Part shown: one piece after another, positions 15,180-34,514 of the stretch
Position numbering within the stretch: the first letter of the stretch is position 1
Layout: the number at the start of each line of letters is the position of its first letter
Origin: Bacteroidota bacterium
Lineage (GTDB): Bacteria > Bacteroidota > Bacteroidia > Bacteroidales > Paludibacteraceae
Direction: 5' to 3'
DNA length: 41,373 bases
Assembly: GCA_030706465.1 (NCBI GenBank)
Contig: JAUZOM010000010.1
Coordinates: forward strand, 1 to 41,373
The notes under the pieces: model-generated
Database searches by the model: none
Told to the model about the DNA's origin: nothing
What the model saw: only the letters and a program-made list of their open reading frames with translations
Made by a program: the position numbers and the translations under genes

Positions 15180-17357
15180 ATGAAAATATTACAAATAGTT
15201 TGTTTCAGAAAATCCTTCAACTTTTTACAATCATCCATTAGCAAAATTTCATTTTGGGCATTTTTAGTACTTTTGGTACAAGATTTATTCATCTGGAAGG
15301 CAATTGCCGATACAGGACAAGTTAAAATGCTGGCCATGCAAACAAATGGTATGCCGCTCGATCAGATGACGGTTCGTACTGAAAAAGGTAACGAAAGAGC
15401 TTGGGTTATCTCTGAAAGGAATTCTTACCTGACATTTCGTCCTGCCAGTCCCTATTCATTTTCTAAAGGCAGTAAACTATATTTGGCTGTAACCTATTTT
15501 GATGATTGTTATGGACGTATTAAGGTTCAGTATAATGGGAAAGATAGGAAAAACAAGTCGCCTGAACGCATATTTCGCGGTGCACCGGGGAAAACTGACC
15601 AGACTGTTACAGCAATGTTTCTTCTTGACGATATATCACCCGAAAAACAATCTGGAAATCAACCAATTATTCGCATTGGACTTGAACGCGCAAAAGGCGA
15701 TCGTTTCGTGATACTTGGGGTGACTCTGCAAAATCAACCATTTAATAATCAGCAGTTTCAATATATCCTTTCTTCCCCATGGATAGGTACTTACAATGGA
15801 CCTACTGTAAAACCGGCCGATAATACTACACTAAAGGGCAAGGTCATGGTAGGTTATCAAGGATGGTTTCGTACTCCTAATGATCCCGAGGCTCGTGGAT
15901 GGGTACATTGGGGTGATATTCAGAATGGTAACTATAATGTTGATATGTGGCCTGACATCTCGCAATATCCCAAACAGGTGCTTGAGAAAGCTGCCGATAT
16001 CAAAACACTCAGCGGGAAACCGGGATACTTGTTTTCATCTGCTTGGCCCGAAGTTGCGGATCTTCATTTCCGTTGGATGCGTGAGCATGATATTGACGGG
16101 GCTTTTCTGCAGCGTTTTGTCAGCGATAAATTTTGTTCCATATCTGGAGGGAGCGAGTGGGTACTTGCCAATGTTCGTGAAGCTGCCAATCGCGAGGGTA
16201 GAATCTGGGCGATTGAATATGATGTAAGTGGATATGCTGATGCTAAAATACTGGAAACGTTGAAAAAGGATTGGAAGTGGATGGTTGACACTTTCGGCAT
16301 TCTCAAAGATCCTAACTATGCCTATGAAAACGGCAAGCCAGTTGTATTCATTTGGGGGCTTCCATTTCCCGACCGGAATTTTACGCTCAAAACCTCCAAC
16401 GCTGTAGTTGATTTTTTTAAAAATGATCCCAAGTATGGAGTTTACTTAATTGGGGGTATTCCCGGTAATTGGCGTAAAATGGATGTCGGTTGGCAGGATC
16501 ATTTTAAAAAATACGATGCTGTTCTATCCTGGATGTCGAGAAGTTATGCTGACGATGTTGCTGATTTTGCCAAATTGGGGGTTATCTATTATCCTCACGT
16601 GAAGCCTGGATTTTCCTGGTCGAATCTTATGCATATACCTACAGGTTCTACAGAAGCCTATACACCACGGGAAGGTGGTAAATTTTACTGGAATTGTTTG
16701 TGCGATGCTGCCAAAGCTAAAGTTGACAGGCTTTTTATTGGTATGTTCGACGAATATGATGAAGGAACTGCAATTATGCCCATGAGCGACGATGCTCCCC
16801 CTACGCCTTCTCGTCCAGGACTTGCAGTTCAATTTTTCAAAAATAACAAGTTCCAGGGTAGGCCGTTTAATACTTCGTATGCAGACATAGATTTTGACCT
16901 TGCTTCAATTCCCCAATTTAAAGGGAAAGTAGTCAATGGTTTCGGTATTAGATGGATAGGCCAGATTAAACCTCCTACTCCCGGGGAATATACTTTTACC
17001 GTTGAAGGTGTGGCTGGAGATAGAGCTAGATTATTTATTAACGACAAGAGAGTTTTGGATGTGAAAGAATTTGGATTAAGCCATACTGACAGCGCTAAGG
17101 TAATGGTTGATCGTGGAGAAAAATTGCTATTGCGGCTCGACTATTCTCCTGCTTCGACTGTAGGAAAGGTCCGGCTGCTTTGGAAAGGGCCTGGAATTGT
17201 TAGTCAGCTTGTACCACAATCTGTGTTTACTGATGCATGGGGACGATTTAATAATAATGAAGGGCACAATAGTGACTGGTATCTGAAACTTACACAGTAT
17301 GGCAAAGAGATGATGCTTGGAAAACGCCCTGAGGATTCGCCAATACCTGAAAAATAA
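15180..17357 (+). CDS. Secreted GH99-like (GH71/99-type) glycosidase with PA14 domain
   Basis: A predicted endo- or exo-acting alpha-glycosidase of the GH99-like group. In GH99 the known activities are endo-alpha-mannosidase and mannanase. A signal segment lies at about residues 22-44. A beta-sandwich of unknown type spans about 50-190 and the barrel about 200-540. A PA14 domain at about 545-685 (RWIGQIKPPTPGEYTF, DRARLFINDKRV) is probably sugar-binding. Landmarks in the barrel are MVGYQGWFRTP, MWPDISQYP, DGAFLQRF, FIWGLPFPDRN and MFDEYDEGTAI. The motif E525-Y-D-E528-G-T lines up with the EWHEGT catalytic pair of GH99, so both acidic residues are kept. It is 725 residues and complete. It shares its barrel with the gene at 26365. 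Family-level assignment is good; substrate is unknown. Confidence 0.85.
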   Translation: MKILQIVCFRKSFNFLQSSISKISFWAFLVLLVQDLFIWKAIADTGQVKMLAMQTNGMPLDQMTVRTEKGNERAWVISERNSYLTFRPASPYSFSKGSKLYLAVTYFDDCYGRIKVQYNGKDRKNKSPERIFRGAPGKTDQTVTAMFLLDDISPEKQSGNQPIIRIGLERAKGDRFVILGVTLQNQPFNNQQFQYILSSPWIGTYNGPTVKPADNTTLKGKVMVGYQGWFRTPNDPEARGWVHWGDIQNGNYNVDMWPDISQYPKQVLEKAADIKTLSGKPGYLFSSAWPEVADLHFRWMREHDIDGAFLQRFVSDKFCSISGGSEWVLANVREAANREGRIWAIEYDVSGYADAKILETLKKDWKWMVDTFGILKDPNYAYENGKPVVFIWGLPFPDRNFTLKTSNAVVDFFKNDPKYGVYLIGGIPGNWRKMDVGWQDHFKKYDAVLSWMSRSYADDVADFAKLGVIYYPHVKPGFSWSNLMHIPTGSTEAYTPREGGKFYWNCLCDAAKAKVDRLFIGMFDEYDEGTAIMPMSDDAPPTPSRPGLAVQFFKNNKFQGRPFNTSYADIDFDLASIPQFKGKVVNGFGIRWIGQIKPPTPGEYTFTVEGVAGDRARLFINDKRVLDVKEFGLSHTDSAKVMVDRGEKLLLRLDYSPASTVGKVRLLWKGPGIVSQLVPQSVFTDAWGRFNNNEGHNSDWYLKLTQYGKEMMLGKRPEDSPIPEK

Positions 17358-17402
17358 TAATATTTAGTATCATTAAAAAAGGTTATTCAAATTGAGAGGA
17401 TT

Positions 17403-17941: not shown

Positions 17942-18025
17942 GAGAAAATTAATCATTTATTAAAGGTCGAAAAGTATTATTGTACCATTAAATCAATAAA
18001 TCTGTTAATTTAAAAACAATGACTT

Positions 18026-21000
18026 ATGAGAAAAATTTTATGTGTATTTTTTTCCTTGTTTTTATGGGGTGCTTGTCAGGTGCATGCCTATTCAAATAAG
18101 GGAAGAACTTTTTTTATATCGAATGAGTTTTCTGGTACCGAAATGGAAGGGCAGCCAAACCTTTCTTTTTCAAATAAGTTACAGGGTACAGTTGTTACGG
18201 GAACGATTACCGACAATAATGGCGAACCTTTGGTCGGGGTTTATGTGAAAGTAGTTGGAACAACTTTGGGAGGTGTTACGGATGTTGACGGACATTATTC
18301 CATTAAAATCCCGGACGAACAAGCAGTTCTTAAATTTTCCTTTATGGGATTTAAGGAACAAACTATTACGGTGGGACAACAAAGGGAAATTAACGTTAAA
18401 ATGAGCGAAACTGTTAACGAGCTGAAGGAAGTGGTTGTAACAGCTCTTAACATTTCCAGAGAGTCAAAAAGTTTAGGTGTGGCCCGTCAGTCAGTAAATG
18501 TAGACGGAATGACCGAAGCTCGTGAAACCAATATTGTAAATGCCTTAGATGGGAAAGCCGCAGGTATATTTATTTCTTCAAGTGGGTCACCAACCGGCTC
18601 ATCCCACATTTCCATAAGAGGTGATAATTCCATTAGCGGGTCAAGCGAACCTCTTTTTGTAGTGGATGGCGTACCCATCAATAACTCTACCGTTATGAGT
18701 GGGAATGTTGACTATGGCAATGGAGCTATGGATATAAACCCTTCAGACGTTGCTAGCATGGAAGTTCTTCCTGGAGCTAATGCTGCAGCCTTATATGGAT
18801 CCAGGGCAGCTAATGGTGCTATTATCATTACAACCAAAAAAGCTGCTCCTGGTAGCAAATATCTTGGATTAACGGCAGATGTAAACTATGCATGGAGTAA
18901 AATTATTGAATATCCTGATTATCAGAATGTATACGGTCAGGGGAATGCCGGTATAGCTACTCAGAATGGTGCTGCTTTTAATTCTACTTATGATGCCATA
19001 AATTTAGGACAGGACGGTAGATCCTGGGGATCTCCCATGGTTGGACAACCATTAGTAAATTTTGCAGGGAAGCTGGTATCCTATGTCCCTCATCCTGATA
19101 ATGTAAAAGATTTTTTTAAGGCTGCTCTTACCTCTAATTATAATGTTGTTTTAGAGAAGAGTGATGCAAACTCAGGATTAAGAGTTTCATACACATTTCG
19201 TAATGCCGATGATATCATGCCTAATGTAAACCTAAGAAAGACTCATACACTCAGTCTGTATGCAAAGCAGAATTTTTCAAAACTCATATCACTAGAGACT
19301 TCTCTTAACTATTTATACGATAATAATCAAAATGCGTTAACCATGAACATGGACGGTTCCAGTGTGTTCTCCAGTTTCATTGGTATGCAACGAAATTTGA
19401 ATGTAAGTGATTTGCTTCCCTGGAAAAATCCGGCCAATGGATACGAATATGGTACTGACGGAAATACCAGCTACGATAATCCCTATTGGGTTCTTTATGA
19501 AAATTCCAATTCAAAAAAGAAAAACAGAATATATGGAACGGTAACAGCTACTATAAATCTTGCAAAGAATTTCTCATTCCGGGGAAAGATTGCTCCTGAT
19601 CTTTCTTTTCTGGAGACCAATCAGTTTAAACAAATGTATGCTAACACAGATAAAGATGGTCAATTAACGGTTATTAACGACAATACCTACAATTGGACTT
19701 ATGATGGGTTATTTATGTATAATACCACCATTAAGAATCTTGCGATTAATGCGTTGGCTGGATTTCAACAGTATCGATATGATGAATTGTATCGTTATGT
19801 AAACCAAAATAATCTTATTGTACCAGATGACAACTCACTGGCAAACTCAGGCAATTATGTCAACATCAATGAAAATATAAGAAAAAAGAAAACTGTTGGT
19901 GCTTATGGTTCTTTGTCTTTGGGTTATAAGAATTACTTGTATATGGATCTGACTGGACGTAATGACTGGTCCTCTTCGCTTCCGGCCAGTAACAATTCAT
20001 TTTTCTATCCTTCTATTAGCGGAAGTTTTGTATTCTCTGAGGCATTAAAAATTGATAAAATTATTTCTTTTGGAAAAATCAGGGCATCATGGGCACAAGT
20101 GGGTAACGATCCGGATATTTATAGTCTCAAAACTCAATTTAATTATGGGGGATTAATCAACGGTATTCCTTATTTAAATTGGGATAATACGATGAAAAAT
20201 CCAAATTTGAAACCTGAAATGACTACCTCCACGGAAGTAGGGACGGATCTTACCTTTTTAAATGGAAGGTTGAGCCTATCAGGTACTTTATATGATAAGA
20301 GTACAAAGAATCAGATTTTTACCAGCTACACTCCGGTTGAAGCTGGTTATTCCAAAGAAGTTGTTAATGCTGGTGAAATAGATAACAAGGGTATAGAACT
20401 TTCAGGAAAAGCCAAACTTCTTGAAGGTAATAAATTTAACTGGAGCATTTTTGGCAATTGGTCTCAAAATAACAACAAAGTAATTAAGTTACTGAATGGA
20501 GTTAATAGATTTCAATTATATTCCAATGCGGTATCAGTTAATGCTGAAGTTGGGCAGCCTTTCGGAGTAATCAGAGGTAGTGCTATTGGAAGAGATGCTG
20601 AGGGCGATGCAATGGTTCAACCTGGAGGTAACTATGTAATTGTTGACGATCAAGTGTTAGGTAATTCGCGACCTAAGTGGATTGGGTCCATCGGTTCTCA
20701 GTTCAGTTATAAGAATTTCGATTTTTCGGTTTTGGTTACCATGCGTTGGGGGGGAATACTTTACTCAAATACTTATTACAGAGCTAACATCAATGGTACT
20801 ACCAACCAAACTGTTGGAGGCAGAGATTATTGGTTATTATCTGCTTATATTTTGGGTGAAGACAACAACGAACGTCAGGGTATAGAAACCAATGCCCAGG
20901 GAGGTAATGGCGTTTATGATGAGAATAGTTCTCCCAAAGGGATACTCATTGATGGTTATTATGCGCTGAAAGACCAAAAGCTTGGCTACATAATCGATGG

Positions 21001-21337
21001 AAGTGGTCATTATGTAAAGGGGGGTAAAAATATTTCCTGGACAGCACCTTATAATTACTGGCAATCTGGTCCCCAGGAAATGTTTATATTTGATGCCAGT
21101 TATGTTAAGATAAAACAAGTCTCCGTAGGCTATAATCTTCCTAAAACTGCATTTAAGGGTATTATAAGAAGTGCAAGAATATCTCTTAATGCCAGTAACC
21201 TCTGGACTATTTTTAAGAATACGCCAAATGGTATAGATCCTGAAGCTGCCTCTAACGGCGGATCAAACATTGGTATTGATGCCGGTGGCGCTTTCCCTTA
21301 TTGTAATTATGGGTTTGACGTAAGAATTTCATTTTAA
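18026..21337 (+). CDS. SusC/RagA-family TonB-dependent outer-membrane glycan transporter
   Basis: An outer-membrane 22-strand beta-barrel that imports oligosaccharides using TonB energy, in complex with the SusD-like lipoprotein encoded next. The signal peptide is residues 1-22 (ends VHAYS). A carboxypeptidase-regulatory-like domain spans about 55-130 (GTITDNNGEPLVGVYVKV, GVTDVDGHYSI), followed by the TonB box EVVVTAL at about 138. The plug covers about 150-275 (ISIRGDNSISGSSEPLFVVDGV, YGSRAANGAIIITTKK). The barrel runs to the end, closing with the aromatic C-terminus DVRISF. At 1103 residues the length is normal. SusD starts 7 bases after the stop, so the two are co-transcribed. The gene is intact, unlike several enzymes around it. 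The transported glycan is not readable from the sequence. Confidence 0.97.
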   Translation: MRKILCVFFSLFLWGACQVHAYSNKGRTFFISNEFSGTEMEGQPNLSFSNKLQGTVVTGTITDNNGEPLVGVYVKVVGTTLGGVTDVDGHYSIKIPDEQAVLKFSFMGFKEQTITVGQQREINVKMSETVNELKEVVVTALNISRESKSLGVARQSVNVDGMTEARETNIVNALDGKAAGIFISSSGSPTGSSHISIRGDNSISGSSEPLFVVDGVPINNSTVMSGNVDYGNGAMDINPSDVASMEVLPGANAAALYGSRAANGAIIITTKKAAPGSKYLGLTADVNYAWSKIIEYPDYQNVYGQGNAGIATQNGAAFNSTYDAINLGQDGRSWGSPMVGQPLVNFAGKLVSYVPHPDNVKDFFKAALTSNYNVVLEKSDANSGLRVSYTFRNADDIMPNVNLRKTHTLSLYAKQNFSKLISLETSLNYLYDNNQNALTMNMDGSSVFSSFIGMQRNLNVSDLLPWKNPANGYEYGTDGNTSYDNPYWVLYENSNSKKKNRIYGTVTATINLAKNFSFRGKIAPDLSFLETNQFKQMYANTDKDGQLTVINDNTYNWTYDGLFMYNTTIKNLAINALAGFQQYRYDELYRYVNQNNLIVPDDNSLANSGNYVNINENIRKKKTVGAYGSLSLGYKNYLYMDLTGRNDWSSSLPASNNSFFYPSISGSFVFSEALKIDKIISFGKIRASWAQVGNDPDIYSLKTQFNYGGLINGIPYLNWDNTMKNPNLKPEMTTSTEVGTDLTFLNGRLSLSGTLYDKSTKNQIFTSYTPVEAGYSKEVVNAGEIDNKGIELSGKAKLLEGNKFNWSIFGNWSQNNNKVIKLLNGVNRFQLYSNAVSVNAEVGQPFGVIRGSAIGRDAEGDAMVQPGGNYVIVDDQVLGNSRPKWIGSIGSQFSYKNFDFSVLVTMRWGGILYSNTYYRANINGTTNQTVGGRDYWLLSAYILGEDNNERQGIETNAQGGNGVYDENSSPKGILIDGYYALKDQKLGYIIDGSGHYVKGGKNISWTAPYNYWQSGPQEMFIFDASYVKIKQVSVGYNLPKTAFKGIIRSARISLNASNLWTIFKNTPNGIDPEAASNGGSNIGIDAGGAFPYCNYGFDVRISF

Positions 21338-21344
21338 ATAAGTA

Positions 21345-23183
21345 ATGAAGATGAAGAAAATATTATATATAGTGATACTTGCATGTCTGGCGAGTGCATG
21401 TGTAAAGGATTTAAGTGAAATTAACAAAAATCCCAATCAGCTCGACCTAACTAATCCCGATCCGGTTTTTCTTGCATCGGAGCTAAATACTGTCAACTTT
21501 TTGCAAAGCGCTAATTCTAGTTGCTTATGGCAATATTCTCATTGGATAACTACTGCTACAGGAGGCTATGGAATAACCTCATATTGGTCTCAATTTTATT
21601 TGAATATGCTTTCAAACCTCAAGCAGTTGCATTTGAAATACGATAATAATTCACTTTTTAATAATCGTATGCAAGTCGTAACAATTTGGGAATGTTATAT
21701 TTATTCCATTATGGTGCAGGCTTTCGGTCCTGTGCCGAGGAGCCAGGCAATGCTTGCCGGAACTAAACCGGGTGATTTGCAATATGGACTATCAAATATC
21801 AAATTCGATTCAGAAGATTCTATTTATTACGACATTCTGAGTAAACTTCGTACTGCAGCAAATTCTATTAAGCTGTCAAACACTGCTGATGCATTTGGTA
21901 AGGTCAACGAACCTATTTTTGGAGGCGACAACGCTAAATGGCAAAGATTCGCGAACTCTCTGCGTTTAAAACTTGCGTTGGATTGCCGTAGTTTTATGCC
22001 AGATACCGCCAATGCAATGATTAAAGAACTGATGGCAAACGAAAATAATCTGTTTAATTCGTCCGATAAGGCAGCCTTTGCCTTTGGTACTTCAAGTGGA
22101 AGCGAAAGCAATTATTGGCAATCATTCTTAAAGCCTTCAGCAACTGTTTTTTATAATAAGAACGCATCTATGCCAAGTGTATCTCCTAAGATGAATGATT
22201 TTATGCTCCAGTATTTCCGAAGTTATAAGGATCCTCGCATGAATGCTTTTTTTGATTCTGCATCTTATGTGGCTAATATTCCCAATGGTGGTGCTCCATA
22301 TACTGTTACCAACGATACGATAGGGAGTGATGGCACAATGGATCCCACGGGAAAACATCGTTGGGTGCTAAACTACTATGCTCCCCATTTTGGCAAACCT
22401 ATCTTCGACAGAAGTCTTTACTGGGGTTCTTTGCCTGTTCTTTCTGCTGGCAGTGCTTATTATGATCAGCCTAAAATTAGTCTTCTCGATAAAAATCATG
22501 CATTTGTAATCATGACCTATGCTGAAATTTGTTTTATAAAAGCTGAAGCTGCCTTGTTAGGTTTGGGCGGGTCAAAAACTGCCGCTGATTATTATAATGC
22601 TGGCATTGATGCATCCATGGCTTTCTGGGGCATTGATTCAAAGGATGCTGCTGATTTTAAAAATAGAGATGGCATAAAATGGAATACTATTGGAACTGGT
22701 TTACCCTATCCCTATTTCCCTGCTACTATGAGTTGGAACATTAATGATAATTTTACACAGATTTGGGACCAACGTTGGGTAAATTATTATATTGATCAGG
22801 CTTTTGATGCCTGGGTGTTGCAAAGGCGGACCAAATCCTTGGATTTAGCTCCACTGATGTCGGGAATTGATGTAATCTGGTCACCCAATTCTTCTTTTGA
22901 AAATATTCCAGAGCGCTGGATATATCCGATTACTGGGGCCAGCAGTAGTGTAAGTACCAATCTTGCTGCGTATAATGAGGCTGTGAAAATGCTGGGTGGC
23001 ACAAACAATCAGTTTGCACTCCTGAGGTTTTCTAAAAATTATGCCTACCGGAATTGGGGTAATGAAAATAGCACATTGCCTACTCCATCGATGTATTTTA
23101 AAAAGTTATACGGCCCTTACATAGAAAGCTATCCGAATACTATACCGGGTTATACTCTTGTAAAAGAGTTTGATCTACCTTGA
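21345..23183 (+). CDS. SusD-like outer-membrane glycan-binding lipoprotein
   Basis: The surface lid and glycan-binding partner of SusC. A lipoprotein signal peptide ends at C19 in LASAC, and acidic and polar residues follow the cysteine (CVKDLSE), as in surface-exported Bacteroidota lipoproteins. It has the typical N-terminal NKNPNQ stretch, helical TPR-like repeats (LWQYSHWITT, WECYIYSIMVQAFGPVP, AKWQRFANSLRLKLALDCR) and the late helix YAEICFIKAEAALLG. This is the SusD-like branch (SusD_2 / SusD-like 2 type) rather than canonical SusD. The start ATG 21345 is followed by a second ATG at 21351. The 612-residue length is normal. It is the second gene of the five-gene uptake operon ending at the terminator near 26011. 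Confidence 0.95.
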   Translation: MKMKKILYIVILACLASACVKDLSEINKNPNQLDLTNPDPVFLASELNTVNFLQSANSSCLWQYSHWITTATGGYGITSYWSQFYLNMLSNLKQLHLKYDNNSLFNNRMQVVTIWECYIYSIMVQAFGPVPRSQAMLAGTKPGDLQYGLSNIKFDSEDSIYYDILSKLRTAANSIKLSNTADAFGKVNEPIFGGDNAKWQRFANSLRLKLALDCRSFMPDTANAMIKELMANENNLFNSSDKAAFAFGTSSGSESNYWQSFLKPSATVFYNKNASMPSVSPKMNDFMLQYFRSYKDPRMNAFFDSASYVANIPNGGAPYTVTNDTIGSDGTMDPTGKHRWVLNYYAPHFGKPIFDRSLYWGSLPVLSAGSAYYDQPKISLLDKNHAFVIMTYAEICFIKAEAALLGLGGSKTAADYYNAGIDASMAFWGIDSKDAADFKNRDGIKWNTIGTGLPYPYFPATMSWNINDNFTQIWDQRWVNYYIDQAFDAWVLQRRTKSLDLAPLMSGIDVIWSPNSSFENIPERWIYPITGASSSVSTNLAAYNEAVKMLGGTNNQFALLRFSKNYAYRNWGNENSTLPTPSMYFKKLYGPYIESYPNTIPGYTLVKEFDLP

Positions 23184-23235
23184 TAATATAAGATTTATGA
23201 AAAGTATAATTAAATTTAATAAAACTTTGAAAAAT

Positions 23236-24405
23236 ATGAATAAAAAAAGGATAATGGGTTTTAGTATATGTTTGATAACAATACTTTTTACCTCTTGTGC
23301 CAAGGATAATTCGTTGAAACTTTCAGATCAGAATCCCGATTTAGTTGGAACTACTGTGATACCTGAGGTTCCCGTGACTAAGGATTATGTTGTAGGTGCG
23401 TTTTATTATAATTTTACAAGCTGGAATACCCGAGTTACAAAAGTACCTGTTGCTTTGCCTTATTTTAGTGATAATACGGGTACTGGTACTGCTATTTGGA
23501 AAGGTGTACCGACAAATGTGATGCAGCAGCATATCCTTCAAGCTAATGCAGGAAAGCTCGATTTCTTTATTTTTTCCTTCAGGAGTTTAATGGACGTTAA
23601 CAATAACAAATCAGATACTTCGTTAATCAAATCCTTTCTGCTTGCGCCAAATGCCAATGATATGAAATTTGCTATAAGTTATGAATTGAGTACAGCTACC
23701 TTGGGTGGAATTTCTACGACTACAGCATTGGAAACTAAACAGACCCAACTCAAGGGTTTCTTAAAAGATTTTATAAGTATTGGCAGGTTTTTTAAATATT
23801 CAAATTACATGAAGGTAGGAGATAAGTACCTGGTTTATATTCATAATGCACATCAATTATATGCTAATGATAATGCAGCTCTTTATAAACGAATGAGAGA
23901 TACGGTGGAACTAACTTATGGTGTTAAGCTTTACATTGTTGCCTCCCAGCCAAATAATAGTACCAGTATTGGAACTCCCCCTGCACGTTTTATCAGTAGA
24001 TTTCAGAATGGGGTTGATGCCGTATGGTTAGACAGGCCATTAAGGTCTCTTAGCAATTCCCTGGGCTGGAGTATATATTGGCAGTATTGTCCATGGGCTA
24101 ACACTTATTTTAAATATTGCAAGGATTATTATAAAAATTACAACATCAACTACCAGCCATCACTTATGCCGGCTTACGATCCCAGGATAAATAATGCTAC
24201 TTCAACAAATCCTTTTTTTGGAAGAGCTGACACAGCAAGTTTTTTCAAGAAGATGTGCAACGTTGCTAAATTGAATGTTGATTCTACTCGTATTGTTGTT
24301 ATTGACTCGTGGAATAACTGGATTGAAGATTCTCAGCTTGAACCTTCTTTGAGTGACTCAACCTTATATTTAAGCACTCTTAGAAAGGAATTTAAGGTAA
24401 ACTAG
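23236..24405 (+). CDS. WbsX / GH99-like barrel lipoprotein in the surface glycan-binding position
   Basis: A lipoprotein directly after SusD, the slot usually held by a surface glycan-binding protein. ATG 23236 is chosen because it gives a standard signal peptide with C21 in LFTSC; ATG 23197 and TTG 23170 are in-frame alternatives. The mature protein is a GH99/WbsX-type barrel: VVGAFYYNFTSW, LDFFIFSFRSL, KYLVYIHNAHQL and the C-terminal IDSWNNWIEDSQLEPS. In WbsX-like proteins this last motif is usually WNEWxEGxxLEP. Here the first acidic position is N361 and the second is E364. GH99-type catalysis uses both acids, so this protein may be non-catalytic and act in binding, or may use a different mechanism. 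389 residues. Predicted outer-membrane surface anchoring; function inferred. Confidence 0.75.
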   Translation: MNKKRIMGFSICLITILFTSCAKDNSLKLSDQNPDLVGTTVIPEVPVTKDYVVGAFYYNFTSWNTRVTKVPVALPYFSDNTGTGTAIWKGVPTNVMQQHILQANAGKLDFFIFSFRSLMDVNNNKSDTSLIKSFLLAPNANDMKFAISYELSTATLGGISTTTALETKQTQLKGFLKDFISIGRFFKYSNYMKVGDKYLVYIHNAHQLYANDNAALYKRMRDTVELTYGVKLYIVASQPNNSTSIGTPPARFISRFQNGVDAVWLDRPLRSLSNSLGWSIYWQYCPWANTYFKYCKDYYKNYNINYQPSLMPAYDPRINNATSTNPFFGRADTASFFKKMCNVAKLNVDSTRIVVIDSWNNWIEDSQLEPSLSDSTLYLSTLRKEFKVN

Positions 24406-25350: not shown

Positions 25351-25431
25351 AAGTCGTTTTTATGATTCGTTATTGGCAAAATCTTTAATAATCATATAAG
25401 TTTCCGAACTTTGAATTTAAAATTGATAAAT

Positions 25432-25947
25432 ATGAAAAAAAATATTTTTATGGGCTTATCCATAGTAATTGTTTTGAACCTGATTTTTTTTGCTGGTTGT
25501 TCGAAAACAGAGGATAAGGTACAAGAAGTTCTTCCTATCTCTATACAGTTTTATGCTCCTAATGTAGTAACCAAAGCAGATTCTTCTTTAGCAAAAGGTA
25601 CTGACATAGAAGGTATGGTAACTGTTGACACACTGAAATTAAATGGCACTTACAAGTTTTCGTTTTCAGTAGCTGCCAAAGCTGTTAATGGTATTTCTAA
25701 GGCCTCTACACTCGTAAAAACTTTTACCGGTACAACTGATACCATCGCTGTTAATAATTTTACTGCATCAACTTGGAACACATCAAATTCTCCTGGATAT
25801 AGAGATGGATATACAGACCTGGGTTATACCCTATCCGATAGTTTGAATTATCAAGGTACACTTTATCCAAGTGTAACGTATATTGTAAAGATTATTGATG
25901 ATTCTGATCCTCAGTTAATTAAATATAGAAAATTAATTGTTCAATAA
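25432..25947 (+). CDS. Small surface lipoprotein of unknown function
   Basis: A 171-residue lipoprotein with C23 in FFAGC followed by SKTED. ATG 25432 is chosen over the upstream TTG 25411 because the signal peptide begins there. The mature part (about 24-171) is predicted all-beta, with TYKFSFSVAAKAVNG and YPSVTYIVKIIDDSD. It looks like a single Ig-like or fibronectin-like domain; I do not recognise the family. It is last in the susCD operon, 64 bases before the terminator stem. Such terminal small lipoproteins often serve as accessory glycan-binding proteins, which is an inference here. A 15-base duplication covers its stop codon. Confidence 0.7.
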   Translation: MKKNIFMGLSIVIVLNLIFFAGCSKTEDKVQEVLPISIQFYAPNVVTKADSSLAKGTDIEGMVTVDTLKLNGTYKFSFSVAAKAVNGISKASTLVKTFTGTTDTIAVNNFTASTWNTSNSPGYRDGYTDLGYTLSDSLNYQGTLYPSVTYIVKIIDDSDPQLIKYRKLIVQ

Positions 25948-26010: not shown

Positions 26011-26041
26011 CGCCGTGGATGGTTTCCACGGCGTTTTTTTA
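26011..26041 (+). terminator. Rho-independent terminator of the susCD operon
   Basis: A perfect 9-base-pair GC-rich stem (26011-26019 with 26025-26033) and a 5-base loop, followed by a run of seven T bases. The preceding strand also carries a T-run, so it may work in both directions. It marks the end of the five-gene uptake operon and separates it from the GH99-like gene at 26365. Confidence 0.9.
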
Positions 26042-26364: not shown

Positions 26365-27648
26365 ATGAGAAGAAAGATTTTTTACCTGGGGATACTGTCT
26401 GTTTTTTTTCTGAATGTTACAATATTTGCCCAGTCCAAACATGCTTCTTCAACAAACTATCCAACTTACAAGGGTTTGGCAATGTGCGGTTATCAAGGCT
26501 GGTTTCGTGCAGAAGGCGATGGAACGAATTCGGGATTTTCTCATTATTTTTCAAGTGAAGAGCGTTGTGGTATCGACGTGTGGCCTGATGTAAGCGAATA
26601 CTCAAAAACGTATGAAACTCCTTTTAAACTGGCTGATGGCAGCAAAGCTCGTCTTTTCAGTTCAAACGATAAAAGCACCATCGATTTGCACTTTAAATGG
26701 ATGAAAGAGTACGGAATTGATGGTGTTTTTATGCAAAGGTTTTTCAGCGTGGCAAGAAATGATGATTCCCGTAAAAAAAATGCAGCTGTTTTACAAAATG
26801 CTCTGGCAGCAGCTTCAAAATATAACAGAGCTATTGCTGTGATGTACGATCTTTCCGGATTGAAAGCTTCCGGTGAAGATTGTTCGGCACTTATAGATGA
26901 CTGGAAATACCTGGTTGATGAGCTGAAAGTGACAAATCAGCCTGGTACAAAAACCTATCTTCATCACAATGGTAAACCCGTGGTGGCCATTTGGGGTGTT
27001 GGTTTTCCTGATAGAGCCTATAACATTAGAAATATAGGTTTGCAGCGTTTGATCGATTTTTTGAAGAATGATCCTGTTTATGGTGGTTGCTCGGTAATGT
27101 TAGGTGTGCCCACTTTCTGGCGAGATTTGAATTCCGATTGCATTAACGATCCCTTTTTACACGATATCATCAGGCAGGCTGACATTGTATTACCATGGTC
27201 GGTGCAACGTTTTTCCCCACTTTTACATAACGATATGGATCGTTTTCGCGACATCATTATGGGTGATATCAAATGGTGCAAGAAAAACAAAGTGGATTAT
27301 GTTCCTAGCGTATGTCCGGGTTTTAGTTGGCATAACCTCAGTCGTTACGAATTCCCCGATGATGTGAAACCCTCAGGTTCAATCCCCCGTCAGGGTGGAC
27401 GGTTTTATTGGCAACAACTTTCTACTGCTATGCTGGCTGGTGCCGAAATGATTTATGTCGCCATGTTTGATGAAATAAATGAAGGCACAGCTATTTTTAA
27501 GTGCAGCAATACACCTCCTCTAAGCGATAAAGCAAAATTTATTGATATGGATGGAATGCCTAGTGATTATTATCTGTGGTTAACCGGAGAGGCTTCTAAA
27601 ATGTTGAAGAAAGAAAAACCTTTAAGTATTAAGATACCTAAAAGATGA
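26365..27648 (+). CDS. Secreted GH99-like (GH71/99-type) glycosidase, single domain
   Basis: A paralogue of the barrel in the gene at 15180, without its N-terminal sandwich or PA14 domain. A signal peptide spans residues 1-22 (ends IFAQS). Landmarks in order are CGYQGWFRAEGD, VWPDVSEYS, DGVFMQRF, AIWGVGFPDR, PSVCPGFSWHNL and MFDEINEGTAI. The acidic pair E370 and E373 in E-I-N-E-G-T lines up with the GH99 catalytic EWHEGT, so the enzyme is probably active. 427 residues, complete. It overlaps the following GH43 by four bases (ATGA), implying translational coupling. Expected to cut an alpha-linked, mannose-like main or side chain; substrate inferred. Confidence 0.85.
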   Translation: MRRKIFYLGILSVFFLNVTIFAQSKHASSTNYPTYKGLAMCGYQGWFRAEGDGTNSGFSHYFSSEERCGIDVWPDVSEYSKTYETPFKLADGSKARLFSSNDKSTIDLHFKWMKEYGIDGVFMQRFFSVARNDDSRKKNAAVLQNALAAASKYNRAIAVMYDLSGLKASGEDCSALIDDWKYLVDELKVTNQPGTKTYLHHNGKPVVAIWGVGFPDRAYNIRNIGLQRLIDFLKNDPVYGGCSVMLGVPTFWRDLNSDCINDPFLHDIIRQADIVLPWSVQRFSPLLHNDMDRFRDIIMGDIKWCKKNKVDYVPSVCPGFSWHNLSRYEFPDDVKPSGSIPRQGGRFYWQQLSTAMLAGAEMIYVAMFDEINEGTAIFKCSNTPPLSDKAKFIDMDGMPSDYYLWLTGEASKMLKKEKPLSIKIPKR

Positions 27649-28622
27649 AGAATATATATGTTCGGTTTATTATTGTGATTTTTTGTTTGCTTCTTATGGG
27701 TATTCCTTCATCTGCGCAGGTTATTGGCCCGGTTGAGACATACCGCAACCCTGCTGTCCCTGGCGATTTCCTTGATCCTACTGCCGTCAGGTTCGGAGAT
27801 AAATATTATGCTGCTGGAACATCCAACGATTTTGCTCCTAATTACCCGTTGTATGAGTCGACAGATTTGGTCAATTGGAAACAGATCGGCTCTATATTTA
27901 ACGAAATTCCGGAATGGGCATCGGGTAACTTCTGGGCACCTGAATTATCTTATAATAAGGGTACTTTCTACATGTATTATACTGCAAAAAGAAAGACCGA
28001 TAATTTTTCGTGCATTGGTGTAGCTACCCCCAAAGATATTCACAAAGGTTTTACTGATCATGGAATCATTGTCGAATGGGGCAAAGAGGCCATTGATGCA
28101 TTTGTTTTAAAAGATACTGATGGTAACCTGTATATTACCTGGAAAACTTATGGGTTGGACAAGGATAGACCGATAGAAATAAGGGAATTGAAAATGCCAA
28201 AACCTGAATTTTTAATCTCGACTAAAATGCTTAGACTTTCCGGCTCCGATTCAAAGGCTGTATTTGTGGATATCAGCCCTCAAACAGGTAATTATAGCAT
28301 GGAAACCTGTGTCGTTAATAATGGGGCACAGTGGAAAGGATTGTCTTTTTATGGTAATCACACATATATGCTTTGTATTACCTCTGGTTCAAACCTGGAA
28401 GTTGTAGCTATCAAAAATGGAGAAAAACAACTAATTTCGAAAAGCGACCTTCCTGCAAATGATAAAATATTTCAAAAGGTCGAATCCACTCACGGTAGTA
28501 TGTTCCGTTTTTATTGGTCTGTCAACCATATTGATCGGATTGCCCGCAAAGACAAGGACAACAATCCTTATATCAATGAGATGTTTCTTCCCAGATGGAC
28601 GTTGCCATGCCTTCAGGGTTAA
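27645..28622 (+). CDS. GH43-like glycosidase with a frameshifted C-terminus
   Basis: A five-bladed propeller of the GH43 type (arabinosidase/xylosidase family), with a signal peptide (residues 1-25, ending SSAQ). The general base D44 is in FLDPTAV and the second aspartate D151 in AIDAFVLKD. The WE...EG(P/G) segment that should supply the acid glutamate reads METCVVNNGAQ (around 28310), with asparagines where Glu is expected, so activity is doubtful. The frame ends at 28622, but the shifted frame from about 28595 reads DVAMPSGLINQDG and KVAVFSYFKLDN, a normal GH43 tail, to TAA 28685-28687, one base before the next ATG. The intact ancestor therefore ended at 28687. A one-base loss around the CCC near 28590 would explain this. 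Confidence 0.75.
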   Translation: MKNIYVRFIIVIFCLLLMGIPSSAQVIGPVETYRNPAVPGDFLDPTAVRFGDKYYAAGTSNDFAPNYPLYESTDLVNWKQIGSIFNEIPEWASGNFWAPELSYNKGTFYMYYTAKRKTDNFSCIGVATPKDIHKGFTDHGIIVEWGKEAIDAFVLKDTDGNLYITWKTYGLDKDRPIEIRELKMPKPEFLISTKMLRLSGSDSKAVFVDISPQTGNYSMETCVVNNGAQWKGLSFYGNHTYMLCITSGSNLEVVAIKNGEKQLISKSDLPANDKIFQKVESTHGSMFRFYWSVNHIDRIARKDKDNNPYINEMFLPRWTLPCLQG

Positions 28623-28688
28623 TAAACCAAGATGGTGAGGGGAAAGTTGCTGTTTTCTCATATTTTAAACTAGATAATAATTTTTAAA

Positions 28689-31607
28689 ATGAACAAAATC
28701 ATTACCCAAGTAAAAAGGTTGTTAACGATAATAGCATGTATATTGCTATTTGATCATGTATTGAATGCACAAGGCGTAAAGTTTAGGCGCGACTTTTCTC
28801 CTGCTGAAGGTATTGTTAAACCACAGGAAGCCCCTTACCGGGAGGAAATTTGTTTAAACGGGAAATGGGATTTTCAGCCTGTGAATATCCCGAAAGACTG
28901 GAAGTCCAATACAGGTAATGCTCCGGAACTAATGCCTCCGATAGAGGGGAAATGGGAACGGACCAAAATTAAAATTCCTTCTCCCTGGAATGTGAATGAA
29001 TGGGGCGGGGGTAGCAAAGTTGGAAAAGGTACCGACAGACCTTATTCGCCTTCATCGGTTTATTATCCAAGTTATCCGCAGAGTTGGGCAGATGTGAGAA
29101 TGGCATGGTTACGGCGTTCTTTTCAGATACCTTCCTCCTGGAATGGAAAAAGAATCGTATTGCATTTCGAAGCCGTGATGGGTGATTTTGTCGTTTTCGT
29201 GAATGGGGAAAAAACAGAAGAACACTTTGGCGACTACATGCCTGTCGATATAGATATTACCGACGTTGCGAAGCTGGGCCAGGTGAATGAATTGAGGGTT
29301 GGGATACGCCATCGCAAGTTGTTCGATAAAACCAGTTCTCAATATAAATATTTCCGTTCCACTTATCCACCCGGATCCAATACAGATAATTTGGTTGGCA
29401 TCTGGCAGGATGTATTTTTGCAGGCACTGCCTCCGGTAAGGGTAACCGATGTGTTTGTAAAACCTTGGGTGGATAAGGACGAGTTGGAGTTTGATGTAGA
29501 ATTGGAGAACCAGACTTCGAAAGAACAAAAATTGACGGTTTCTGGTGCCGTTAAAGAGTGGGTAAATCGGGCGTCTAAGGATGTTTTAGGCGCACCGGAA
29601 ATAAAATGGCAACTTGGTGCTAATGATCTCATTGCTGTTAATTCTGGCCAGGTTATACTCAAACCCGGTGAAAGGAAAAGGATCATCTTAAAATCTAAAG
29701 TCCAGGGAAGGTTAAAGCTATGGAGTCCTACTGAACCTAATTTATATACTATCCTTCTTCAGGTGAATGGCAAAAAGCAGGTATTAGATTGCAAGAGCCA
29801 ACGTTTCGGCTGGCGCCAGTTTACCATCCAGGGAAAGGATTTTTACCTGAATGGTAAAAAGATACAATGTTTTGCTGATATCCAACATCCTTTTGGAGCC
29901 TATATTTGCTCGCGCAGGTTTGCGTGGGCCTGGTTTAAAATGATTAAGGATTTTGGCGGCAATACTGTTAGGCTTCATGCTCAGCCCTGGCCTGAATTCT
30001 ATTATGAATTGGCTGACGAAATGGGGTTGATGGTTCTGGATGAAGGAGCTCTTTTTGGCAGTTCTCTTTCGTTAAATTTCGGGGAAGAAATTACCTGGGA
30101 ACGAACAGCCCAACATATTGACGCTTTGGTTATGAGGGACCGCAATCACCCGTCGGTTATTGGGTGGAGTGCTGGGAACGAATTATTTGCTATTAGGGCA
30201 TATAATAAGCCCACCCCGGATGTTGCTGCCTTATGGGATGAAAAGATTATAAAAATTGCCCAACGACCTGCTGCATTAGACCCAACAAGGCAATTTATTA
30301 CCGATGATGGTGACCAGGATATGAACGGACATCTTGCGGTTTGGAGCAAACATTTTGGCCATGGCTTAAAACTTGATTTGTTGCCTAAAGATCTTAATAA
30401 ACCTTTAATTATAGGGGAGTCCGGGGCAACGTATTATGGTAAGCCCAAGGACTTATATCAATTTGCCGGAGAAAAGGCATACGAATCATATTATGGTCGC
30501 AGCGAAGCATTGGCGATTGATGTATACCAAAATGCAGTTAAAATGGCTAAACCTTTTCTGGCTTATTATTCCCCTTCGGAGGTAAGCTGGTTTGGCCTCG
30601 AACATATGAATCTCGGGTATAATGACTATTCCCGCCTTCCCGATTCCAACGACGGTATATTTTTTGGCCCTTATATAGAAGGTAAACCTGGCTATCAGGT
30701 AGAACGAATCCCTCCATATGTTACAACATTTAATCCGGGGCTTGATCCTTCCTTGCCGGTATATAAACCATTACCAATGTTTGAGGCTTTGCAGGCAGCG
30801 CTCTCCAAAGCCGAACCACAGCCGTGTCCTTGGGATAATTATCAAATGCAGACAATAACAAAAAGAACGGATTTTCCTTCTGTTGTATTCCAACAAGCTT
30901 ATTTTGTGGGAAAGCAGGAAAGTGTATTGGCAAAACAACTTGGCAAATTCGGAATCAGCCTGACAATGGAAAGCAAAACAGCTAAATGTATCATTATCGA
31001 TGGCGAAAACCTTTCTGAAGATATGTTGAAAAAAGCTTCGAAAAGCATTAGTCGCGTTCAGAACGAAGGAGGTTTGATCTGGGTGATGATCTCAGACGGT
31101 AAACCTTCTGCTGCTTTGAATGCTCTAATACCTGCAAGTTTCGAACTTACTAACCGGCAGTCAACTTCATTGCAAAGTAATAAGAACGATCAGATAGGAA
31201 AGTATTTCAATTTGCCGGATCTTTATTTTTCTGAAATGGATGGTGACCGGAACATTCTGAAACAAGGTTTGACTGGCGATTTGGTAAAGAAGGGTTCTAT
31301 TGTATTTGAAGCCACAAACATCGATTGGTCATTATTTAACCAGACAGGAGAAAACAGAAAATGTGCCCAGGTAGTGCTATACGAACATCTGAAGAAACCA
31401 CAGGGTGTGGCCATGGTGACTTATCCTGTCAAGAAATCGACATTTGCACTTTCTGTCATCGATTATAAAATTACCAGTAAGGAAACTGTTACTTTTTGGA
31501 AAAATCTTTACGCTGCCATGGGACTCAAATCGGAAGGTTCTGAAGAGGAGCGCTCCACCACGAAGAAGAATCATGATTTATTGCTGGATGGACCGCTAAC
31601 TAAATAA
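28689..31607 (+). CDS. Secreted GH2 beta-glycosidase
   Basis: A retaining beta-glycosidase of GH2 (galactosidase, mannosidase or glucuronidase type), expected in the periplasm. A signal peptide spans residues 1-27 (ends LNAQG). The jelly-roll sugar-binding domain covers about 50-220 (LNGKWDFQ, RMAWLRRSFQIP), with Ig-like domains to about 375 (LWSPTEPNLY) and the barrel about 380-640. The acid/base is E498 in GWSAGNE and the nucleophile E577 in IIGESGA. About 250 further residues (from about 720 to 972) form a C-terminal region with an alpha/beta character (AKCIIIDGENLSED, GGLIWVMISDG), like a glutamine-amidotransferase-type or GH2 accessory domain. It starts one base after the ancestral end of the GH43, so it is probably translationally coupled to it. 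Substrate cannot be assigned. Confidence 0.9.
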   Translation: MNKIITQVKRLLTIIACILLFDHVLNAQGVKFRRDFSPAEGIVKPQEAPYREEICLNGKWDFQPVNIPKDWKSNTGNAPELMPPIEGKWERTKIKIPSPWNVNEWGGGSKVGKGTDRPYSPSSVYYPSYPQSWADVRMAWLRRSFQIPSSWNGKRIVLHFEAVMGDFVVFVNGEKTEEHFGDYMPVDIDITDVAKLGQVNELRVGIRHRKLFDKTSSQYKYFRSTYPPGSNTDNLVGIWQDVFLQALPPVRVTDVFVKPWVDKDELEFDVELENQTSKEQKLTVSGAVKEWVNRASKDVLGAPEIKWQLGANDLIAVNSGQVILKPGERKRIILKSKVQGRLKLWSPTEPNLYTILLQVNGKKQVLDCKSQRFGWRQFTIQGKDFYLNGKKIQCFADIQHPFGAYICSRRFAWAWFKMIKDFGGNTVRLHAQPWPEFYYELADEMGLMVLDEGALFGSSLSLNFGEEITWERTAQHIDALVMRDRNHPSVIGWSAGNELFAIRAYNKPTPDVAALWDEKIIKIAQRPAALDPTRQFITDDGDQDMNGHLAVWSKHFGHGLKLDLLPKDLNKPLIIGESGATYYGKPKDLYQFAGEKAYESYYGRSEALAIDVYQNAVKMAKPFLAYYSPSEVSWFGLEHMNLGYNDYSRLPDSNDGIFFGPYIEGKPGYQVERIPPYVTTFNPGLDPSLPVYKPLPMFEALQAALSKAEPQPCPWDNYQMQTITKRTDFPSVVFQQAYFVGKQESVLAKQLGKFGISLTMESKTAKCIIIDGENLSEDMLKKASKSISRVQNEGGLIWVMISDGKPSAALNALIPASFELTNRQSTSLQSNKNDQIGKYFNLPDLYFSEMDGDRNILKQGLTGDLVKKGSIVFEATNIDWSLFNQTGENRKCAQVVLYEHLKKPQGVAMVTYPVKKSTFALSVIDYKITSKETVTFWKNLYAAMGLKSEGSEEERSTTKKNHDLLLDGPLTK

Positions 31608-31618
31608 TGTTTTCAAGT

Positions 31619-31665
31619 GACGCTGGCAGGGTAATTTAATATCAGTGCCTTATCCTGTCAGCGTC
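31619..31665 (+). terminator. Long hairpin after the GH2 gene
   Basis: Arms 31619-31634 and 31650-31665 pair over all 16 positions with two G-T (G-U in RNA) wobbles, around a 15-base loop. It starts 12 bases after the GH2 stop. No T-run follows the stem, so it may act as an RNA end-stabiliser or processing signal rather than a standard terminator. It resembles the hairpin at 7546-7589 in design but not in sequence. Confidence 0.5.
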
Positions 31666-31742
31666 TGCACTACCAGGCGCTGTTTTGAGTTATTCAATCT
31701 TGAATCAACTGTAGCAGCTCCAGGTAATTAATAGTTTTGTGT

Positions 31743-34514
31743 ATGATCAAGTCTATGCTTCATTTAATAAAACTGCAAATAAGTATTCTTTTACTTTGTT
31801 TGTCTTATGCAGGAAGTGCCCAGATATCCACCAATAACTGGTATGTAGGTAATACGGCAGCTGGAGAATGGATTAAATTTAAAAAGGTTTGGCTATCTTC
31901 CGGGACTTATCGCTTTACAACCCGTTCCGTGGCTAAAGGGAAAAACCAGACGATTCATCTGGAATTGAATGGCCAGGTTATTCAGGAAAAAGTTCTGGTA
32001 CCATCAAATCCTCTTGATACTTTTGAACTCGTTCACCTGGGGCATAAACAATTGGCAGCAGGTTACTACGATGTAAAGCTTGTTTTTGAAACCGGAAGTG
32101 TAAACTGCGACATGATCTTCATCAGAAAAGATAATAATACTTCGAATGCGGTGTTGAGCCATGATATTGCTTATTCTATAAATCGTAACGACAGCATGCT
32201 TGTAGCCCCAATTGGTGGAGCGTGGGGGGCCAGCAACTATCTGGCAAAAGGTGGGGACAAAGGTGATGATGCAATTTGGACAGATAACAACAATCAACCT
32301 TATACCCGCAAACAAGTGCTTTCCTGGAACAAGCAACAGGTTTATGTCTATACCCCGGATGTTTCGGATCAAGCTTTGGATATGTATGTCTCTGAACAGG
32401 TAGAAGCTAAAGTGAGCTTTATCTTTTCGCACGGACGGGGGGAAGTAGATTCGATTCATAATATAGAGGACCGTCTTTATATGCCAGGAATAGGTGGATT
32501 TGGATGTAAGCAGTTAAAACGGTTAGTAGATGCTATCAATCGCAATCCTTATGCCAAGGGTAATCTGAAAATCGCGTATTTTCTGGATAATGCTGTTTTC
32601 CCTTTAGCCTGTAAACAATATCTGGGCAAAACTATGAGCTGGGGTGACCCTGAATGTCAGGAATTTCTTTGGAATTATACGTTCAAGAAGTTTTATCAAA
32701 TGATTCCCCGCGATATGCTGTTCGAACGTTCCCCTGGTGTAGTACCGATTCAATTGTGGTCGGCTGATGCAAATTACGATTACACTGTTGGTGATACAAA
32801 AATATTAGAATTCCTTCAGTTTATAAAACAAAAGATGATCAGCACTTTTAATCTTACACCTTCATTTATTTTAGATCAGACATTTCTGAAACGCGACCCT
32901 CGTGTTTCAGCAGTAGCAGAAGGATTGCAGTCTTGGTTTTCCTGGGGAAAGGAAGTAACGTCCATGGCAACATTGAATGGGAAAAATTATGCTTTTGGAT
33001 TTAATGGTGGAAGGTATCCTTTACGTAACGTGTGGCTTGCTGATTGGAATCCTGCAACCAATGAAGGAACTCATTCTTCCAGTACGGTTGATTATCATTT
33101 TTCTTCTCTGAACAGCAATGGTAGTCCTCTGATACGTCCCATATTCGAACGAGGGTTGACTCAAAAAGCAGAGTGGATTGTTTTGGAATCCTGGTTCGAT
33201 TGGAGGGAGGGTTCGACGTTTTATCGCAGTGATCATCCGGAATATGCATATCCCAATCAATATTTATCATTGGTTAGGGAATTTGCTGATCGTAATTCAA
33301 GTTCTATTATTTTGGAAGCTGAAGCATGTGATGAATTTTACGACCGCTCACCAGGAAATTCTGGTGGTGCTTATCGTGTGAACTGGTACAAAGATCTGGA
33401 TAAAAATATTTATGATGCCAATTTGGCAATTGACCTGGATATTTACCGGCCTTTACATAAACTAAGTGCTCTGCAAAGTGTGGGAACTCCAGGGACTGCC
33501 TTTAATGATTTTTCTGTAGGTTTTTACGATATCTGGGGATATGATGCTTCTGGTAAAATATCCTGTCATGAAGCCGATGGAGTTCCAGTTAGCTGGAAGG
33601 TCATCAGAAATCCATTGACCAAAGTAAGAAAACTGGCTTTAAGCCGGTATAATGCTTGGGCGTTAACTACCGATAATAAAGTGATGAAATGCGAATTACC
33701 CTCCGGATGGGACACAAATAATGCCACTGCCTGGCTTGATGTTACCGGAACACAACCCATGAAAGATCTGGATTTGAATATGACCACCGCTTGGGGGTTA
33801 GACGATAAAGGAAATGTGTTTTATCGCGACTTAAGTGCAAAAAATCCATGGACTTCTGTTCCTGGTAATGTGTCTTCCATAACTGCCGACGATGAATTTT
33901 TGTGGGGATTTACATCATCAGATAGTATAGTACGAATGTCAACTCAGAGTAAAACAAAATGGGATACAATTCCCAATCCTTACAAAATTACCAAGATTGA
34001 TGCGGGTGGCTGCGAGGTCTGGGGAGTGAATGCAACTAATGATGTTTATCGAATTAATTCTTCAGGCGAAGGTTCATGGCAGTGGGTTGCGAATGGCTAT
34101 ACCAATGTGAGCGTTGGGTACGAATATGTCTGGTTGTCAGATGCCAAAGGGAATATGTATAAATACGATATCAAGGGATTTGAAAATAAAACAAGCTTTC
34201 CGTCCGATACTTCTAATCTGTTGCCGATTACTACCGAAGTAAGAAATATAAACGAGGACCTTGCCTTACGGATTTCTCCCAATCCATTCTCAAACTATCT
34301 CAGAATTGATATCCCTTCCGATAAACAGGATGAAGTTTTATTAACTCTCTTTGATATGAGTGGGAAATTACTGTTAAAACAAAATTCGGCCTTGGAAGCC
34401 GGTAATAATATTCTAAGCCTGAATCAGGTAGGAAAGCTGAATCAGGGAGTGTACCTCCTTATAATTACAAAACATCAGAAGCAAAGAACTTATAAGGTGG
34501 TTAAAATTGAATGA
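31743..34514 (+). CDS. T9SS-exported DUF5010 (GH99-like) protein with tectonin-type beta-propeller
   Basis: A large secreted protein. ATG 31743 is chosen over TTG 31737; the signal peptide ends near residue 26 (AGSAQ). Domains in order: a CBM6/35-like beta-sandwich (about 30-130); a DUF5010 / GH99-like barrel (about 145-520) with IAYFLDNAVFPLAC and a closing LESWFDWREGS, in which E482, D485 and E489 are candidate acids; a short CBM-like stretch (LEAEACDEFYDRSPGN, about 522-575); six tectonin-like repeats (about 595-815) with the pattern WGxxxxGxVYR...W (AWALTTDNKV, AWGLDDKGNVFY, LWGFTSSDS, VWGVNATNDVY, VWLSDAKGNMY); and a T9SS type A sorting domain (about 836-923, with ISPNPF and the late GVYLLIITK). 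Expected on the cell surface or released. Probably cleaves or binds the intact polysaccharide. 923 residues, complete. Confidence 0.82.
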   Translation: MIKSMLHLIKLQISILLLCLSYAGSAQISTNNWYVGNTAAGEWIKFKKVWLSSGTYRFTTRSVAKGKNQTIHLELNGQVIQEKVLVPSNPLDTFELVHLGHKQLAAGYYDVKLVFETGSVNCDMIFIRKDNNTSNAVLSHDIAYSINRNDSMLVAPIGGAWGASNYLAKGGDKGDDAIWTDNNNQPYTRKQVLSWNKQQVYVYTPDVSDQALDMYVSEQVEAKVSFIFSHGRGEVDSIHNIEDRLYMPGIGGFGCKQLKRLVDAINRNPYAKGNLKIAYFLDNAVFPLACKQYLGKTMSWGDPECQEFLWNYTFKKFYQMIPRDMLFERSPGVVPIQLWSADANYDYTVGDTKILEFLQFIKQKMISTFNLTPSFILDQTFLKRDPRVSAVAEGLQSWFSWGKEVTSMATLNGKNYAFGFNGGRYPLRNVWLADWNPATNEGTHSSSTVDYHFSSLNSNGSPLIRPIFERGLTQKAEWIVLESWFDWREGSTFYRSDHPEYAYPNQYLSLVREFADRNSSSIILEAEACDEFYDRSPGNSGGAYRVNWYKDLDKNIYDANLAIDLDIYRPLHKLSALQSVGTPGTAFNDFSVGFYDIWGYDASGKISCHEADGVPVSWKVIRNPLTKVRKLALSRYNAWALTTDNKVMKCELPSGWDTNNATAWLDVTGTQPMKDLDLNMTTAWGLDDKGNVFYRDLSAKNPWTSVPGNVSSITADDEFLWGFTSSDSIVRMSTQSKTKWDTIPNPYKITKIDAGGCEVWGVNATNDVYRINSSGEGSWQWVANGYTNVSVGYEYVWLSDAKGNMYKYDIKGFENKTSFPSDTSNLLPITTEVRNINEDLALRISPNPFSNYLRIDIPSDKQDEVLLTLFDMSGKLLLKQNSALEAGNNILSLNQVGKLNQGVYLLIITKHQKQRTYKVVKIE

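Follow-up and report, generated by a model that had tools for sequence, protein, structure and literature searches.

GH99-type barrels in a Paludibacteraceae PUL include a probable pseudo-enzyme encoded next to SusD

The window analysed here (the whole stretch of DNA under study, 41,373 nucleotides) is the entire contig C2 of a 4.34-Mb Bacteroidota genome in 337 contigs (GCA_030706465.1, Paludibacteraceae). All gene-like ORFs of the window lie on the forward strand. The first part encodes, in order, an esterase-like protein, GH3, GH31, the C-terminal half of a GH3, a GH63-like protein, a short esterase fragment and a protein designated A; the second part encodes SusC, SusD, B, two small lipoproteins, C, GH43 and GH2; and the last part encodes D, GH28, GH38 and GH43 (Table 1). 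A preliminary description of this DNA had placed related barrel genes at 15180, 23236, 26365 and 31743, and ORFs are present at all four places, corresponding to A, B, C and D. A tRNA scan of the window found none, and no Rfam family reached its gathering score in the window. No sulfatase family matched among the window proteins scanned with Pfam, and the window contains no GH92 match.

Two further genes of the first part were inspected. The secreted GH3-type protein encoded at 10728-11747 matches only the C-terminal GH3 domain and Fn3 in Pfam, and it lies only 38 bases from GH31, leaving no space for an N-terminal GH3 domain; it is possibly another non-catalytic remnant, in addition to B (see below). 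The esterase gene at 14027-14692 (SASA-like, a weak match) has an early stop, with no obvious continuation within the next 487 bases in three frames.

Table 1. Features of the window. Residue numbers of B follow P0002 (start 23170) and those of D follow P0004 (start 31737).
Feature	Position	Strand	Basis
Gene A, secreted GH99-like barrel with inserted PA14	15180..17357	+	PF16317 26.9 bits, PA14 47.5 bits; 36% identity to C
Acid pair of A, E525-x-x-E528	16752..16763	+	Alignment with C; both columns invariant in 37-sequence set including A
PA14 inside A, before barrel end	16809..17216	+	PA14 = residues 544-679; barrel resumes at 688
SusC-type TonB-dependent transporter	18026..21337	+	TIGR04056 624 bits
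SusD-like lipoprotein	21345..23183	+	PF12771 165 bits
Gene B, probable surface glycan-binding lipoprotein; pseudo-GH99 of WbsX type, related to OpGH99A	23236..24405	+	5ngw E=1.5e-29
Eroded motif of B, S-W-N-N-W-I-E-D	24307..24330	+	Asn383 replaces first Glu; Glu386 kept
Fib_succ_major lipoprotein, presumed SusC-SusD-B transcription unit	24448..25350	+	PF09603 79 bits; lipobox by eye
Small lipoprotein (178 aa) without Pfam family	25411..25947	+	No Pfam match; lipobox by eye
Terminator-like hairpin and T-run, 3′ of SusC-SusD-B unit	26011..26033	+	9 pairs, 7 GC; consensus match only
Gene C, secreted GH99-like protein	26365..27648	+	PF16317 42 bits; model pLDDT 93.2; top Foldseek rows GH99
Acid pair of C, E370-x-x-E373	27472..27483	+	Both kept in 117/118 relatives, first in 118/118
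GH43	27645..28622	+	PF04616; 4-base overlap with end of C
GH2	28689..31607	+	Pfam
Gene D: CBM35, DUF5010 (divergent), tectonin, T9SS tail	31743..34514	+	PF16402 106 bits, TIGR04183 44.7 bits
Acid pair of D, D488-x-x-E491	33198..33209	+	Invariant in 8 DUF5010 proteins; hhalign onto C E-x-x-E
GH28	34747..36168	+	Pfam
GH38 alpha-mannosidase family protein	36200..39445	+	PF01074 136.6 bits
GH43, open at contig end	40106..41371	+	PF04616 142 bits

A and C are 36% identical across 360 aligned positions, indicating that they are paralogues of one family. The earlier proposal of four different barrel families is therefore rejected in favour of three kinds of barrel, and, because A and C each carry a plain signal peptide (read by eye), the four export routes proposed with it are reduced to three. 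C exceeds the Pfam GH99 cut-off (PF16317, 33 bits), whereas A falls under it. The PA14 domain of A interrupts the barrel downstream of the acid pair, with residues 688-725 of A aligning with residues 390-427 of C. Of the domain packages described previously, PA14 in A, the lipobox of B, the bare secreted form of C and the CBM35, tectonin and T9SS tail of D are all present, but PA14 is an insertion and not a terminal fusion.

C aligns with human MANEA (E=5.4e-6), with E-I-N-E of C positioned over E-W-H-E of MANEA. In the chain of the MANEA E404Q variant, the letter aligned to the first Glu of C is Q; the altered residue is the first Glu, and the structure carries the title 'inactive'. An AlphaFold2 model of C, computed from 37 input sequences, has a pLDDT of 93.2, and in a Foldseek search of the PDB rows 1-36 are all GH99 (best E 6e-19), followed by GH71. 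The model of C thus matches the GH99 (beta/alpha)8 fold, so that the structure prediction suggested in the preliminary description as a check bears out the assignment for C, to which A is related as given above. Both acids of E-x-x-E are invariant across the 37 sequences of the C alignment, including A. Among the A/C-type proteins in the fetched loci, the first Glu is kept in 118 of 118 and both acids in 117; L076:9905-11254 is the sole protein with an altered second acid (E to K). The A/C family is widespread, with at least 541 relatives in genome contigs, the best 80 of which are 66-77% identical over the best segment. From these sequences, A and C are predicted to be periplasmic GH99-type alpha-glycosidases, and their family is a likely tool for alpha-mannoside glycans.

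The window genome carries at least eight A/C-type, two B-type and two DUF5010 genes. A 24.8-kb contig of the same genome, C274 (L150, L151), contains four A/C-type GH99-like genes encoding 411-697 aa, alongside relatives of GH3 and GH2 and a GH92 match; four GH99-like genes together are therefore not unique even in this genome. In another genome of the class (G202), a GH99-like barrel (L013:1459-4260) heads a reading frame of ~2076 aa.

The genes for SusC, SusD, B, the Fib_succ_major lipoprotein and the 178-aa lipoprotein are separated by gaps of 7-60 bases. B, which has a lipobox seen by eye, starts 52 bases after SusD and is presumably co-transcribed with SusC and SusD. The hairpin at 26011-26033 has the most G-C pairs among eight such sites, but 9.4 sites are expected by chance, so it is suggestive only. 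C begins 417 bases past the ORF of the 178-aa lipoprotein and overlaps the GH43 gene by 4 bases.

B matches Pfam WbsX with 41.6 bits (cut-off 25.1). Its only clear solved relative is OpGH99A from Ochrovirga pacifica (5NGW; E=1.5e-29, query residues 62-394), and the title of the corresponding paper (Robb 2017, as cited in PMC13063451) describes a GH99-related protein lacking catalytic machinery. The motif reads W-N-E-W-A-E in canonical WbsX, S-F-N-N-W-N-I in OpGH99A and S-W-N-N-W-I-E-D in B. Specifically, the catalytic Glu pair is not intact in B, the first Glu being replaced by Asn383 and the second being Glu386, so that B shows both the sequence kinship and the lost first Glu of an OpGH99A-type pseudo-GH99. 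All four strings previously listed as related acidic motifs are found, but that of B is what remains of E-x-x-E after loss of the first acid, and a set of four equivalent enzymes is rejected on this ground.

A family model was built from four B proteins. Its strong matches (E<=2.3e-40) are present in 19 of 48 C-bearing genomes, 16 of which are new, since two of the 19 had contributed sequences to the model and another one is a near-copy. Among 48 unselected genomes of the class, for which all candidates were scored, none has a strong match and one has a weak match (3e-15), at a canonical WbsX gene; genome size tends to be greater in the C-bearing set, and the lineages of the two sets may differ. 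Two wider samples gave a strong match in 1 of 295 and 1 of 345 genomes, the window's own genome each time, and the absence elsewhere is not used alone because only some candidates per genome were scored.

The B family comprises 22 members: the matches of the 19 C-bearing genomes, B itself and a second copy on contig C332. Every one of the 22 genes lies directly after SusD, B being a lipoprotein encoded beside SusD and its relatives following suit in 21 of 21 cases. The acid pair is gone in all 21 readable members; the remaining gene is truncated where its contig ends. At the first position eleven proteins have N, five K, four D and one Q, while the second acid is kept in 11 and lost in 10 and is never kept together with D at the first position. 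A first-position D is not by itself proof of inactivity, because GH71, DUF5010 and the WbsX match L129 (W-N-D-F-G-E-G) have D-x-x-E. All nine weak B matches that were read keep E-x-x-E, with no SusD in their short flanks. The window genome encodes a second SusC-SusD-B unit (L153:3931-5163), with both acids altered in the motif W-N-D-F-A-S.

A 40-row tree places the 21 B proteins together with OpGH99A on one side of a branch with support 97/93; the tree is unrooted, its 18 enzyme rows are a selection that includes two long branches meeting each other, and the C332 copy is a long row. Because the root is not inferred, a single loss is only the simplest reading. B is most likely a pseudo-enzyme and, by prediction, a surface glycan-binding protein. 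One dead GH99-type protein was already known, as a crystal structure; new here is the family as recognised from its sequences, together with its position after SusD, the loss of its acid pair and its grouping on one branch. Annotators could drop the names 'glycosyltransferase WbsX' or 'GH99 enzyme' for such proteins, and glycan binding by the family becomes a direct test. Among open-licence papers, we found none treating WbsX together with GH99 and none treating a surface glycan binding protein together with GH99.

D belongs to DUF5010 (Pfam cut-off 23.7). The closest relative identified is a paralogue from contig C124, which shares 52% identity with D over 917 positions and 60% over the barrel; this second DUF5010 protein of the genome (L152:10657-13404) belongs to another PUL, where relatives of GH2 and GH31 are also encoded. 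Identity of D to six classical DUF5010 proteins is 22-27%, and E-x3-D-x2-E is invariant across eight DUF5010 proteins. In an hhalign comparison with the C family, D-W-R-E of D aligns onto E-I-N-E (probability 56.9, E=1.1e-4); the comparison of D with B is weaker (15.1), and that of B with C gives 87. The model of D, computed from eight sequences, is poor (pLDDT 54.8) and has no Foldseek match at E<=1e-3, and a search of the PDB by sequence gave D no GH71 or GH99 match. The GH99-type kinship claimed for all four barrels is thus supported for A, B and C but only suggestive for D. DUF5010 may well be a tool for alpha-mannoside glycans; a search for DUF5010 among open-licence papers found none.

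The neighbourhoods of relatives were compared in 18 B loci of ~18 kb each, with Pfam names checked on ten neighbours. A C-type gene is present in 8, a GH92 match in 7, GH130 in 2 and DUF5010 in 1; within the fetched 18 kb, 10 loci have no C-type gene and 11 have no GH92 match. The locus of Sphingobacterium corticibacterium, with the order SusC-SusD-B-GH2-C-GH92-GH2-DUF5010, is the only one of the 18 with B, C and DUF5010. C loci of 20 kb or more number 45, some of them from a shared genome; 23 contain a GH92 match, 3 contain B and 1 contains GH38. DUF5010 is present in 6 of the 48 C-bearing genomes, and among 295 class genomes only that of the window has a DUF5010 match above the cut-off. DUF5010 adjoins C in L020, L095, L203 and L207 and GH92 in L095, L206 and L207, with neither in L204 and L205, and so lies near C or GH92 in 5 of 7 places examined outside the window genome. 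For A, the 48 C-bearing genomes yielded no close relative at E<=1e-70, in a search without a positive control. With these counts (A 0/48, DUF5010 6/48, and B, C and DUF5010 together 1/18), a conserved four-gene cassette, for which a co-occurrence search had been suggested earlier, is rejected, but the pairing of B with C survives in part.

Inferring function and substrate from these observations, we consider it probable that the locus is an alpha-mannoside-glycan PUL in which GH99-type barrels play three roles, B being a converted binder. The glycan would be branched and perhaps acetylated, with alpha-mannoside linkages. D, exported by T9SS, would act on the still intact polymer outside the cell, probably cutting or anchoring it with its D-x-x-E pair. 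B would be an enzyme turned surface lipoprotein, its barrel sequence kept and its first catalytic Glu gone, and together with SusD it would hold the chain at the surface for SusC/SusD uptake. SusC would import pieces of the glycan, A and C would cut the imported oligosaccharides in the periplasm with their E-x-x-E pairs, and GH38, GH43, GH2 and others would trim the remainder. The compartments in this scheme are assigned from signals read by eye and from the T9SS profile. A staged surface and periplasm layout, as first envisaged, is plausible, and the idea that a surface member might hold the polymer gains support, but one of the barrels is most likely no enzyme.

An alpha-mannoside glycan is the likely target, because GH92 matches occur in 23 of the 45 long C loci, which together with GH38 in the window agrees with the mannose-related substrate proposed at the outset. 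The window also encodes GH28, GH31, GH3 and a GH63-like protein, so the main sugar may be one other than mannose. A rather unlikely alternative, although the foremost one, is that the target is a pectin- or hemicellulose-like plant polymer, with the GH99-type genes acting on a minor side chain, perhaps an alpha-glucosyl one as for GH71. The GH28, two GH43, GH2, GH3, GH31 and esterase genes of the window would suit such a polymer, the D-x-x-E pair of D is similar to the DYGE consensus of GH71 (PMC13421300), and GH71 ranks second, after GH99, among the fold matches of C. However, E-x-x-E of A and C is GH99-like and not GH71-like, GH92 and GH130 adjoin relatives of B and C, and the window itself has GH38, all of which favour the alpha-mannoside reading.

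It is improbable that the barrel genes lie together by chance in a PUL-rich genome with many GH99-type genes: the numbers of A/C-type, B-type and DUF5010 genes in this genome and the failure to find A and D in most related genomes would fit, but B follows SusD in 22 of 22 cases and shares 8 of 18 loci with C, and DUF5010 lies beside C or GH92 in 5 of 7 places. Less probable again is that all four barrels are enzymes, B using Glu386 with a residue from elsewhere or a one-acid chemistry. In its favour, B has Glu386, the second Glu persists in 11 of the 21 family members, and GH99 is considered to use substrate-assisted chemistry, so that one acid might suffice. Against it, none of the 21 has Glu at the first position, where N, K, D or Q stands instead, the second acid is lost too in 10 of 21, the MANEA E404Q structure is titled inactive and the solved B relative OpGH99A is titled as lacking catalytic machinery.

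Beyond the three-role reading of this locus, a broader proposal, to which we give somewhat less than even credence, is that the catalytic Glu was lost in a single ancestor, an enzyme of GH99 type, from which widespread SusD-linked glycan-binding lipoproteins of Bacteroidota arose, often encoded in the same loci as living relatives, with D as a third, exported D-x-x-E branch and DUF5010 as a new family of alpha-mannan or alpha-glucan hydrolases. If this is true, one fold both holds and cuts alpha-mannoside glycan.

Among known systems, the GH99 enzymes MANEA, BtGH99 and BxGH99 (endo-alpha-1,2-mannosidase/mannanase) resemble C in fold and A and C in E-x-x-E. The identity of C in the fold match is, however, 14-18%, and the motif differs, being D-E-x-x-E-G in A and C and N-E-W-H-E-G in known GH99. 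The GH71 alpha-1,3-glucanases share D-x-x-E with D, according to the DYGE consensus in PMC13421300, and are the second fold match of C, but D has no GH71 match in the PDB by sequence and none by fold at E<=1e-3. OpGH99A is in the same protein family and on the same branch as B, and both have Asn for the first catalytic Glu; they differ at the second acid, which is Ile in OpGH99A and Glu in B. The bacterium that encodes OpGH99A is marine and has a PUL for sulfated mannan, whereas no sulfatase was found among the scanned window proteins.

The nearest published case is the Polaribacter/Ochrovirga GH195 PUL. As described in PMC13063451, the Polaribacter PUL for a diatom sulfated alpha-1,3-mannan uses a T9SS-exported, GH99-related GH195 endo-mannanase to open the polymer, followed by a periplasmic GH92, and the Ochrovirga version is cited to the OpGH99A paper. 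According to the same text, 18 other putative enzymes of the Polaribacter PUL appeared inactive on mannan, so PUL membership is no proof of substrate. Compared with that system, the window has no GH92 match and no detected sulfatase; it instead combines a DUF5010 on a T9SS tail with GH38 and two GH99-like secreted proteins.
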